A stretch of DNA of 64,000 nucleotides. Source: Polymorphobacter megasporae (lineage in GTDB: Bacteria; Pseudomonadota; Alphaproteobacteria; Sphingomonadales; Sphingomonadaceae). Of this stretch, positions 4,965-41,412 are shown in pieces. Below the pieces are notes generated by a model. That model ran no database searches. It worked only from the letters and a program-made list of their open reading frames with translations, and was not told where the DNA came from. The stretch spans positions 1,178,001-1,242,000 of the forward strand of contig NZ_CP081848.1 in assembly GCF_018982885.2 (NCBI RefSeq). Direction: 5' to 3'. A program made the position numbers and the translations under genes. How positions within the stretch are numbered: position 1 is the first letter of the stretch; the number at the start of each line of letters is the position of its first letter.

Positions 4965-4980
4965 CGCAATAACCATGCCA
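4965..4980 (-). promoter_or_regulatory. sigma-54 promoter of the PEP-CTERM gene at 4155-4919
   Basis: The minus strand reads TGGCAT-GGTTA-TTGCG, with the invariant GG and GC exactly 10 bases apart as required for sigma-54 (-24/-12) promoters. Only the sixth base of TGGCAC deviates. It lies about 46 bases upstream of the start codon. The two other PEP-CTERM genes in the window have perfect versions. Confidence 0.7.
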
Positions 4981-5087: not shown

Positions 5088-5106
5088 TGTCGGATATCTT
5101 TACATT
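5088..5106 (+). promoter_or_regulatory. shared upstream element TGTCGG-N5-TTTACATT, reverse orientation
   Basis: The sequence TGTCGG ATATC TTTACATT matches the element found before the two tandem PEP-CTERM genes in 13 of 14 defined bases. Here it lies 107 bases upstream of the leftward sigma-54 promoter and points the opposite way relative to it. Enhancers for sigma-54 activators often work in either orientation, so an activator site is plausible. Confidence 0.55.
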
Positions 5107-39461: not shown

Positions 39462-39480
39462 TGTCGGTCATCTTTACACT
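39462..39480 (+). promoter_or_regulatory. shared upstream element TGTCGG-N5-TTTACACT, copy 1
   Basis: The sequence TGTCGG TCATC TTTACACT is followed by exactly 61 bases before the TGGCAC of the sigma-54 promoter. The copy before the second gene (40657-40675) has the same 14 defined bases and the same 61-base spacing. The fixed position relative to a -24 element fits a binding site for a sigma-54 activator. Confidence 0.75.
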
Positions 39481-39541
39481 GACCTAGTAACCATTGAATT
39501 TGGGATGAGCGTAATCAATGGCTTATCCGGCTCTCAAGTTT

Positions 39542-39557
39542 TGGCACAACGTTTGCA
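39542..39557 (+). promoter_or_regulatory. sigma-54 promoter of PEP-CTERM gene 1
   Basis: TGGCAC-AACGT-TTGCA is a perfect match to the -24/-12 consensus, with GG and GC 10 bases apart. The start codon is 65 bases downstream, leaving a 5' leader of about 50 bases. Confidence 0.85.
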
Positions 39558-39621
39558 TGGTTAACGGCGCTGGTGTTGGGGGATCGGCGTATCTCGAACG
39601 CTTTCCGTGGAGCAGATTAAC

Positions 39622-40167
39622 ATGATCAAGATTCTTTCAATCGCCGCAGTTGCCCTGATGGCAACCCAGGCTTCGGCGCTGACGAAGATCGTTCCGCTGG
39701 GCTTGATCGTCGTTCCGCCGACGCAGACGTCTTCGCTCGGCACGACGTTCTTCACCAACGGCGACAATAGCGCGTATTACGAGTTCACGGTGTCGCAGCC
39801 GAACACGGCTGGCGTGAGCAGCTTTACGAACAGCGCGGTCGGCAAGACGGGCTTCTTCAACTTCTCGTCGATCGGCCTGTACGAGGGTCTCGGGACCAGC
39901 GGCACGCTGCTCCAGACCGGGACGATCGTCCCGCGCAATGACGGCGGCACGACGCAGGCGTACCTCGATGAGTACACCTTCACTGCAGGCAAGAGCTACA
40001 CGATCGCCTACTCGGGCAAGGTCGTCGGCGAGCCCGCATCGGTCGGCAGCAGCATCACCTTCGCGCTTGCAGCGGTTCCCGAGCCGGCCTCGTGGGCGCT
40101 GATGATCGTCGGCTTCGGCATGGTCGGTTACTCGGCCCGCCGCCGCACTGCGGTCGTCACCGCTTAA
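39622..40167 (+). CDS. small PEPxxWA-CTERM protein, tandem copy 1
   Basis: The 181-residue secreted protein has signal peptide MIKILSIAAVALMATQASA, a beta-rich body (EFTVSQPNTAGVSSFTNSAVG, YTIAYSGKVVG) and the sorting tail VPEPASWALMIVGFGMVGY followed by SARRR. It is similar along its whole length to the protein at 40822-41361 and clearly arose by duplication. The ATG at 39622 is chosen because GGAG precedes it by 9 bases and the signal starts there. A role in the surface matrix is inferred from the PEP-CTERM system. Confidence 0.92.
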   Translation: MIKILSIAAVALMATQASALTKIVPLGLIVVPPTQTSSLGTTFFTNGDNSAYYEFTVSQPNTAGVSSFTNSAVGKTGFFNFSSIGLYEGLGTSGTLLQTGTIVPRNDGGTTQAYLDEYTFTAGKSYTIAYSGKVVGEPASVGSSITFALAAVPEPASWALMIVGFGMVGYSARRRTAVVTA

Positions 40168-40188
40168 GCGGATATCTACGGATCTTAA

Positions 40189-40222
40189 GGGGGGCGCGCT
40201 TCACGGCGCGCCCCCCTTTTTT
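40189..40222 (+). terminator. intrinsic terminator of PEP-CTERM gene 1
   Basis: GGGGGGCGCGC pairs with GCGCGCCCCCC across a 6-base loop and is followed directly by six T residues. This is a strong rho-independent terminator 21 bases after the stop codon. Confidence 0.95.
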
Positions 40223-40302
40223 CGTCCCGGTTGGTTCGCACCTGGTTAATGAAGGGTTTGCGAAATGGCCGCCTCGGGCAAAGACGCCTGTGGAGGGGCG
40301 TG

Positions 40303-40491
40303 ATGTCCGAAACCGTGCTGGATTATGTCGTCAAATCCCGGAACGGCACCTGGAGCGTTTTCAAGCGCACTCAGGATAGCCGACGGGGCTGGCTCAAGAC
40401 GTACGAGCTGTCCTGCCATGCGACCCGCGAAACCGCGGTTGCCGAAATGCGCGCGCGCAACCTTGCCCATGTCGCGAGCCAACCCGAATAG
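40303..40491 (+). CDS. small hypothetical protein between the tandem PEP-CTERM genes
   Basis: A 62-residue reading frame starts at ATG 40303 with a strong TGGAGGGG ribosome binding site 4 bases before it. The product (MSETVLDYVVKSRNGTWSVF, later ATRETAVAEMRARNLAHV) has no signal peptide and reads as a short soluble beta-beta-alpha unit, faintly like DUF2188-type small proteins. It lies after the terminator of gene 1, so it needs its own promoter. The function is unknown. I favour it as real because of the ribosome binding site and the well-behaved sequence. Confidence 0.65.
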   Translation: MSETVLDYVVKSRNGTWSVFKRTQDSRRGWLKTYELSCHATRETAVAEMRARNLAHVASQPE

Positions 40492-40656
40492 ACACATTTG
40501 CTTGATGGCCGACGCGATGTCCGCCCGTCTGCCGTCGTCGGTGCAGTCGCCAATCGGTCGGCTCTTAATCGAGATAGAAATGCGCCGACGGCTTGCCGCG
40601 TTAAGCACGTTCCGACCGTCAACCCATTTCGTTGTGTAAACGAAACGAAATTAAAG

Positions 40657-40675
40657 TGTCGGGTTAGTTTACACT
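40657..40675 (+). promoter_or_regulatory. shared upstream element TGTCGG-N5-TTTACACT, copy 2
   Basis: The sequence TGTCGG GTTAG TTTACACT ends exactly 61 bases before TGGCAC of the promoter at 40737, the same spacing as copy 1, although the DNA between differs. An additional inverted half (GTGTAAA) lies 27 bases upstream of the TTTACAC. Confidence 0.75.
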
Positions 40676-40736
40676 TATGAAGGCGGCGATATTTCTCGCT
40701 TGAACGATATCAAGATGTTCGCCTTTCGGACGGGTT

Positions 40737-40752
40737 TGGCACGATGCTTGCG
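40737..40752 (+). promoter_or_regulatory. sigma-54 promoter of PEP-CTERM gene 2
   Basis: TGGCAC-GATGC-TTGCG matches the -24/-12 consensus with the required 10 bases between GG and GC. The start codon lies 70 bases downstream. Confidence 0.85.
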
Positions 40753-40821: not shown

Positions 40822-41361
40822 ATGATCAAGGTTATCTCAATCGCCGCATTCGCCCTGATGGCGGCCAAGGCGTCTGCAGTTACCATGCTCGTTTCGCTCG
40901 GCGCGATCGTTGTCCCGCCGACGCAGTCGTCGTCGTTCGGCATCACTTTCCAGAAGAATGGTGCGAACACCGGTCTGTACGAGTTCACGATCTCGCAGGC
41001 GAATACGGTTGGTGTCAGCAGCTTCACCAACAGCGCCGTCGGTAACATCGGTGTGTTTAATTTCGCGTCGCTCGATCTCTACAAGGGTACCGGCACGGCC
41101 GGATCGCTGCTCGCGACCGGCACGATCGTTCCGCGCGCCGGCGGCACAACGCAGGCCTATCTCGGTTCCTACACCTTCGATGTCGGCAGCTACACGATCG
41201 CCTACACCGGCACCGTCCGGGGCCGTCCGGCGAGCGTCGGCAGCAGCATCACCTTCGCGATGGCGGCGGTTCCCGAGCCCGCTTCGTGGGTCATGATGAT
41301 CGCTGGTTTCGGCATGGTGGGCTTTGCGGCCCGCCGTCGCAACTCGGCCGTCACCGCCTAA
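40822..41361 (+). CDS. small PEPxxWA-CTERM protein, tandem copy 2
   Basis: The 179-residue paralogue of the 39622-40167 product has signal peptide MIKVISIAAFALMAAKASA, matching body segments (SLGAIVVPPTQSSSFG, GVSSFTNSAVGN, GGTTQAYLGSYTF) and the tail VPEPASWVMMIAGFGMVGF followed by AARRR. Exosortase cleavage and surface retention are expected from the family. GAGGAC precedes the ATG by 7 bases. It has its own sigma-54 promoter and terminator, so the two copies are separate transcription units under the same control. Confidence 0.92.
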   Translation: MIKVISIAAFALMAAKASAVTMLVSLGAIVVPPTQSSSFGITFQKNGANTGLYEFTISQANTVGVSSFTNSAVGNIGVFNFASLDLYKGTGTAGSLLATGTIVPRAGGTTQAYLGSYTFDVGSYTIAYTGTVRGRPASVGSSITFAMAAVPEPASWVMMIAGFGMVGFAARRRNSAVTA

Positions 41362-41383
41362 ACTTCGTTCAAGTCCGACACGA

Positions 41384-41412
41384 GGGGCGCGCCGCAAGGC
41401 GCGCCCCTTTTT
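41384..41412 (+). terminator. intrinsic terminator of PEP-CTERM gene 2
   Basis: GGGGCGCGCC and GGCGCGCCCC form a perfect 10-bp stem around GCAA, followed by five T residues. Confidence 0.95.

Follow-up and report, generated by a model that had tools for sequence, protein, structure and literature searches.

The conserved element upstream of two PEP-CTERM genes in the DNA analyzed here is, with a probability of about 0.8, a PrsR box: the upstream activating site of the NtrC-type regulator PrsR, placed in helical phase with a sigma-54 promoter that drives PEP-CTERM genes in this genome and a hairpin RNA elsewhere. The box, its phase, its gene targets, the conservation of the RNA and the co-occurrence with prsR were each established by computation, and the evidence for them is set out below.

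The window is a 64-kb stretch of DNA, corresponding to C1:1178001-1242000 of a 4.89-Mb genome in 3 contigs, and its relevant features are collected in Table 1. Exact copies of TGTCGG-N5-TTTACACT occur at 39462-39480 and 40657-40675 and nowhere else in the window, and the only exact matches to TGGCAC-N5-TTGC are promoters 1 and 2 of Table 1, with GG/GC at -24/-12 as in sigma-54 promoters. The sequence-only reading had placed each 19-mer 61 nt before the consensus sigma-54 promoter of a PEP-CTERM gene. This is confirmed, and the gap to TGGCAC is exactly 61 nt at both sites, or 63 nt if measured from TTTACA. An ungapped comparison of the two spacers finds 25 identical bases out of 61, so the pair is not a simple leftover of duplication, as had also been proposed. 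Two further details of that reading needed extending. Both window sites stand, but a third box, inverted relative to its gene, lies elsewhere in the window. Both copies of the 19-base element likewise stand, but alignment of 87 sites places the core in a 17-mer, TGTCGG-N5-TTTACA, with weaker flanks (AAA before, TT after). The aligned sites have an outer dyad and an asymmetric inner half (CGG versus TTT), and the box reads as an imperfect dyad, AAA-x-TGTCGG-N5-TTTACA-x-TT. To loop to the sigma-54 holoenzyme, NtrC-type activators need to bind a dyad as a dimer, from one face of the helix. No second conserved box of the kind that Haft and colleagues saw as repeats was seen upstream of the first in the 87 aligned sites. 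If the sigma-54 element is taken as -24/-12, the window boxes would be centered near -98. Genes 1 and 2 each look like a single-gene unit because a terminator-like hairpin lies behind each of them. Within the window alone, allowing up to 3 mismatches to the 19-mer gives 4 matches against a shuffle mean of 1.42, and 8 of 100 shuffles reach 4. The window-only count is near chance, and the proof comes from the whole genome.

Table 1. Predicted boxes, promoters, genes and hairpins in the window (window coordinates)
Feature	Position	Strand	Basis
Putative PrsR box 1, 17-nt core TGTCGGTCATCTTTACA	39462..39478	+	Pattern match; length, 3' end and spacer as Haft motif 1
Predicted sigma-54 promoter 1 (TGGCACAACGTTTGC), 63 nt past box core	39542..39556	+	Consensus match
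PEPxxWA-CTERM protein gene 1, ATG at 39622	39622..40167	+	FxDxF family model
Terminator-like hairpin 3' of gene 1	40187..40218	+	Consensus scan only
Putative PrsR box 2 (TGTCGGGTTAGTTTACA)	40657..40673	+	Pattern match
Predicted sigma-54 promoter 2 (TGGCACGATGCTTGC), 63 nt past box core	40737..40751	+	Consensus match
PEPxxWA-CTERM protein gene 2, paralogue of gene 1	40822..41361	+	Family model
Terminator-like hairpin 3' of gene 2	41382..41409	+	Consensus scan only
Third putative PrsR box, inverted relative to its gene, 107 nt from sigma-54 site	5088..5104	+	1 mismatch to 18-mer
Predicted sigma-54 promoter 3 (TGGCATGGTTATTGC)	4966..4980	-	Consensus match
Third PEPxxWA-CTERM protein gene, 254 aa	4155..4919	-	Family model

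Across the whole genome, TGTCGG-N5-TTTACAC with at most one mismatch is found 25 times (13 exact), against 0 for a control read backwards. A sigma-54 partner is present at 21 of the 25 boxes. Sixteen have a same-strand sigma-54 site (0-2 mismatches) 49-51, 60-61 or 71 nt after the 19-mer, and five further boxes, two of them exact, are inverted with a sigma-54 site at 105, 105, 107, 115 and 117 nt. Each of the 13 exact boxes is paired with a promoter. The four boxes that have no sigma-54 partner carry one mismatch each (L020, L021, L026 at C2:585037, and L028) and were rejected as real sites and taken as chance. A map of PEPxxWA-CTERM proteins has 94 matches in this genome, 86 over the cut-off, and promoters were paired with genes by hand. 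PEP-CTERM genes lie behind 20 of the 21 sigma-54-linked boxes (15/16 forward, 5/5 inverted), which is the enrichment that the sequence-only reading had predicted; the exception, L014 (C1:3794688), precedes a short membrane ORF. The strict box lies upstream of only 20 of the 86 PEPxxWA-CTERM genes over the cut-off.

The distances between box and promoter follow the turn of the DNA helix. We scanned 296 genomes of the order with the exact pattern, counting spacers from TTTACA. With spacers of 45-75 nt there are 89 sites in 42 of the 296 genomes, and these spacers fall solely at 51-55, 61-66 and 72-75, leaving 45-50, 56-60 and 67-71 empty. In the same 42 genomes, the range 14-44 adds 7 sites, at 41-43, and the range 76-106 adds 8, at 76, 84 (three), 85, 86 (two) and 92. 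The best period is 10.8 nt (R 0.81), and an R this high arose in 0 of 2000 uniform simulations; the test set comprised 72 PEP-type spacers and 15 from the two outer ranges, the genes of the latter being unchecked. A lattice at 10.6 nt runs through 42.1, 52.7, 63.3, 73.9, 84.5, 95.1, 105.7 and 116.3. The spacers sit on this lattice near 42, 53, 63, 74 and 85, and the 92-nt spacer is off it. The fixed 61-base distance claimed earlier therefore describes the window pair correctly but gives way, as a rule, to several distances at a fixed helical phase.

Orientation appears to change with distance. At 41-92 nt, the boxes found have TGTCGG away from the promoter, and each of the five inverted boxes of the window's own genome (105-117 nt) deviates by no more than 1.3 nt from 105.7 or 116.3. 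No inverted motif turns up at 45-75 nt in the 42 genomes, all of which were chosen for a forward 45-75 site, and inverted boxes at 66-95 nt number 0 in 249 loci, mostly collected for forward sites. The rule for inverted boxes comes from 5 sites of one genome, two of which are alike. The helical lattice, together with the pattern of near and far orientation, is new content: no phasing of such boxes besides the work of Haft and colleagues appeared among the matches listed in a literature search that covered papers outside subscription.

The targets of the 89 exact sites are mostly PEP-CTERM genes. A classical PEP-tail gene follows 50 sites by regular expression (at L041 its start is 794 nt from the promoter), and 22 more precede a short or variant PEP-CTERM protein as judged by eye; 16 sites have no PEP-CTERM gene and one runs off its contig. 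Initially, 37 of 90 rows had no PEP tail that the regular expression could recognize, and reading the proteins by eye moved 20 of these to PEP-CTERM, comprising two short VPEP proteins and others with SEP, VEP, NEP, AEP, PQP, PAP, PVP, PLP or PIP tails. Two rows for which the regular expression had taken the wrong frame or gene (the first site of L073, and L076) were also reassigned by eye. Six of the non-PEP sites (L105-L110) have a hairpin and a convergent grxD, two (L078 and L084) have hairpins, one (L085) has an NYN-like ORF by eye, and seven (L014, L094, L095, L100, L101, L114 and L115) precede short single-pass membrane ORFs. These membrane ORFs encode about 34-56 aa by eye and are convergent with an alkaline phosphatase gene at L095, an exosortase-A-associated decarboxylase gene (TIGR03099) at L114 and a 2OG-Fe(II) oxygenase gene at L014. 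At L084 (G287:C1:54456), the box and sigma-54 site are followed by a strong terminator-like hairpin, and the convergent ORF is phage-type-terminase-like by eye.

A relaxed pattern, which matches in 162 of the 296 genomes with 9 backwards matches in all, brings a second class of target into view. Within the window's own family (f1, the Sphingomonadaceae), genomes with a relaxed site mostly have one each, and we examined 60 such sites spread over genera. At 54 of the 60, the promoter precedes a predicted hairpin RNA of 60-90 nt. In 46 cases the hairpin lies between the promoter and a convergent grxD frame (CGFS motif, monothiol glutaredoxin), an identity confirmed by Pfam or NCBIfam in the three copies tested (L110, L116 and L195), and in 8 cases a hairpin is seen by eye with no grxD nearby. 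The remaining 6 sites are PEP-CTERM genes by eye. The 5' part of the RNA has (G)UACCCC or GUCCC at the predicted start, then (U)GGUCUUCGA and a GC-rich stem; the 3' part has CUGGUCUCC in an apical loop, then the returning strand of the stem and CUCCCCGA, and some genera deviate from this plan. At L146 (genome G182), a GGUCUUCGAUAA unit at the 5' end is present in several repeats.

Conservation and covariation point to a structured RNA. We aligned 24 copies that were picked by box, sigma-54 site and clean alignment and not by loop. The loop is conserved, and double changes affect 8 of the 10 stem pairs; fold z-scores of eight copies range from -2.1 to -6.2. A scan of one genome per species over 84,980 species, with TTTACA, TGGCAC-N6-TGC and CTGGTCTCC at set distances, returned 74 loci, in Sphingomonadales taxa (including Sphingobium sp. 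SYK-6, L195) or in alphaproteobacterial, proteobacterial or pseudomonadotal MAGs. TGTCGG stands exactly five bases before TTTACA at 68 of the 74, though it was outside the scan pattern. An RNA model, R1, built from the 24 copies recovers 72 of the 74 loci, a set that overlaps in part with its training copies, and misses L195 and L237. R1 also matches 81 of the 296 genomes, one copy each and all in the window's family; the window's own genome is without a match at E 0.01. In 70 distinct rows 96.5% of cells pair, and 48 double-change cells compare with 11.9 in shuffled alignments (0/500 reach this) and at most 18 in slid controls; further pair types on these rows are not above chance (13 versus 11.7, 83/500 shuffles). 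The predicted product has the character of a small RNA, being a conserved short structured RNA just after a promoter, and no consistent small ORFs were found in the grxD-side RNA of L105-L110. Rfam 15 at the gathering score has no family for the RNA in 15 loci, where it matches only a tRNA, and in 13 loci searched at E up to 1 nothing reaches the gathering score. The match nearest to its threshold, SNORA76 (36.2 versus gathering 37), lies beside the L129 RNA on the other strand and was taken as chance. A weak match at one locus (L154) to ar14 (RF02344), which like the hairpin RNA is an alphaproteobacterial small RNA, was also rejected, its 29.3 bits being far below the gathering score of 58.8.

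It is unlikely, though worth weighing, that the hairpin is a bidirectional terminator of grxD or a remnant, and that no functional RNA is made. Its position beyond the 3' end of the convergent gene at 46 of 60 sites would suit a terminator, as would the T-run that comes straight after the hairpin at L106 and L109. Many copies, however, have by eye a second, separate hairpin nearer grxD, and the loop is conserved while its stem pairs covary. The distance from box to promoter tells the same way, as the spacer is 63-65 in 74 of 74 loci although 56-70 was permitted. Finally, grxD is not always present: 50 of the 74 loci have it in convergent orientation, whereas in 7 its place is taken by a large downstream gene on the same strand, with an ARLFGPI start, and the three of these that were tested (L177, L198 and L222) all encode CHASE4-GGDEF-EAL proteins. 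The remaining loci comprise 9 with flanks too short to tell and 8 of other kinds. The RNA lies upstream of a large same-strand gene at L177, L198, L222 and L240, and a link to c-di-GMP is possible where that gene encodes CHASE4-GGDEF-EAL. The same 7 loci lend something to a more doubtful alternative, in which the hairpin is the 5' leader, or attenuator, of the gene that follows and not a free small RNA; in the four measured, the frame starts 104-159 nt after the loop. At the 50 loci where the neighboring grxD is convergent, there is nothing for such a leader to lead. We retain a free, sigma-54-driven small RNA as the preferred reading of the hairpin.

The distribution of these promoters follows that of PrsR. 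In the window's own genome, PrsR matches TIGR02915 with 662 bits (cut-off 502.6), and the adjoining PrsK matches TIGR02916 with 607 bits (cut-off 300). PrsR is over the cut-off in 228 of the 296 genomes. Relaxed sites occur in 129 of 194 PrsR-positive and 1 of 19 PrsR-negative genomes of the window's family, and in 24 of 34 and 8 of 49, respectively, in other families; the species are related, and Fisher p-values are descriptive. Of the 8 PrsR-negative genomes in other families, five are 64-93% complete and three (G058, G076 and G099) have chance-looking sites. The single exception within the family, G273, has two abutting half-PrsR matches (model positions 1-233 and 229-444) at G273:C1:2285367-2286699, which is a split prsR or an assembly error. 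G273 retains the RNA promoter, and its relative G171 has prsR whole. Among the 81 genomes with an R1 match, 80 are PrsR-positive and the other, G210, has a weak partial match. The association is not complete in either direction, since a relaxed site is missing from 65 of the 194 PrsR-positive members of the family and from 17 of the 81 genomes with the RNA, which means that a visible box does not accompany the RNA in every case. The co-occurrence with prsR suggested by the sequence-only reading is thus upheld for relaxed promoters, but the exact pattern alone shows a weak association (37/228 versus 5/68, p 0.075); of the five PrsR-negative genomes with the exact pattern, four are 67-93% complete and the fifth is G273 with its split prsR. 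That the box is bound instead by another Fis-type NtrC-family regulator of the same genome is very improbable: the window's own genome does hold 8 strong TIGR02915 matches, of which 7 fall short of the cut-off and represent other sigma-54 activators, and most PrsR-positive genomes lack the exact site (present in 37 of 228), but 18 of the 19 family genomes that have no PrsR equivalog have no relaxed site despite 2-7 other TIGR02915 matches each at E<=1e-70 (the exception being the one with prsR in two pieces), PrsR was singled out by the profile match of Haft and colleagues (PMC1569441), and a sigma-54 response regulator enriched its five predicted PEP-CTERM targets by DAP-chip in the relevant passages of PMC3333781.

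A mechanism can be proposed from these patterns in which PrsK would phosphorylate PrsR and phosphorylated PrsR would bind the box. Bound PrsR, through DNA looping, would then drive a sigma-54 promoter some 41-117 nt away into the open complex. The box would act on one face of the helix, with the promoter distance quantized in steps of about 10.6 nt. The targets in the window's own genome would be single-gene PEP-CTERM units, and in many other Sphingomonadaceae the same promoter type would drive a short hairpin RNA whose loop carries a conserved GGUCUCC. Since the same type of promoter precedes the hairpin RNA, PrsR there would control a candidate regulatory RNA, 60-90 nt in length, encoded next to grxD or ahead of a c-di-GMP gene. 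Pairing with GGAGACC-like mRNA sites may occur through its GGUCUCC and GGUCUUC motifs; these are complementary to GRAGACC, and pairing would cover a Shine-Dalgarno-like sequence. Somewhat less firmly than the PrsR box itself, we favor the view that the most widely shared part of the PrsK/PrsR regulon in Sphingomonadaceae is a sigma-54-driven small RNA and not a PEP-CTERM gene, and that the phased box is direct when near and inverted when far (beyond about 100 nt).

These results turn a prediction of 2006 into a sharp, testable rule of helical phase and orientation. They suggest a role for PrsR in sphingomonads in which the only box promoter found precedes no PEP-CTERM gene. A small RNA under a PEP-CTERM regulator, if true, would connect the sorting of proteins with post-transcriptional regulation of the envelope or biofilm. 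A 60-90 nt transcript from one promoter, in strains such as Sphingobium sp. SYK-6, offers handles on the signal and targets of PrsK/PrsR.

The reading of the element as a PrsR box is supported but already known. Ahead of proteobacterial PEP-CTERM genes, Haft et al. described a motif 1 of 17 nt with TTTACA at its end, followed after a spacer (mean 62.8, SD 10.6, range 32-92) by a sigma-54 motif 2, and named PrsR, of a PrsK/PrsR/PrsT system, as the matching activator by phylogenetic profile (PMC1569441). The candidate PrsR site of the sequence-only reading, which its PEP-CTERM targets and the co-occurrence of prsR support, was thus predicted there. The present box is alike in its 17 nt, TTTACA end, spacer of about 63 nt, sigma-54 site and single-gene PEP-CTERM units, the 5' half being outside the comparison, and here too PEP-CTERM genes lie downstream (20 of 21 boxes) and both PrsR and PrsK are encoded. 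The window sites (63 nt) and the exact sites (41-92) fall within the earlier spacer range, whereas the five inverted boxes (105-117) fall outside it. Section 7 of that paper gives the spacer's mean, SD, minimum and maximum alone, and helical phasing, orientation and an RNA target are absent from that section (PMC1569441) and come from this analysis. DVUA0057 of Desulfovibrio vulgaris is the sigma-54 response regulator that enriched its five predicted PEP-CTERM targets by DAP-chip; it belongs to a distant organism and, in the passages that describe it, has no validated binding motif (PMC3333781). In another bacterium, Aquincola tertiaricarbonis, the relevant passages describe a PEP-CTERM gene, pepA, that needs rpoN1 and has a mapped -24/-12 promoter and a predicted upstream enhancer, and they leave PrsR dependence open (PMC9850573).

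The RNA arm above all is new content and was not found described: no sphingomonad small RNA under PrsR or RpoN was among the matches listed, by titles and abstract starts, in the same search. LuxO-Qrr, CbrB-CrcZ and NtrC-NrsZ are parallels for a small RNA driven by an activator. By analogy, the closest parallel would be QseE/QseF-sigma-54-GlmY of Escherichia coli, in which, from the passages that concern it, an NtrC-type two-component system drives a small RNA from a sigma-54 promoter, with an envelope theme (PMC6075780). The same passages give three upstream sites of the form TGT-N12-ACA for GlmY (PMC6075780), against one seen here of the form TGT-N11-ACA, and the likeness drawn here is one of regulatory design. 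As QseF does with GlmY, PrsR may switch the cell surface in two ways, through transcription of PEP-CTERM genes and through an RNA.
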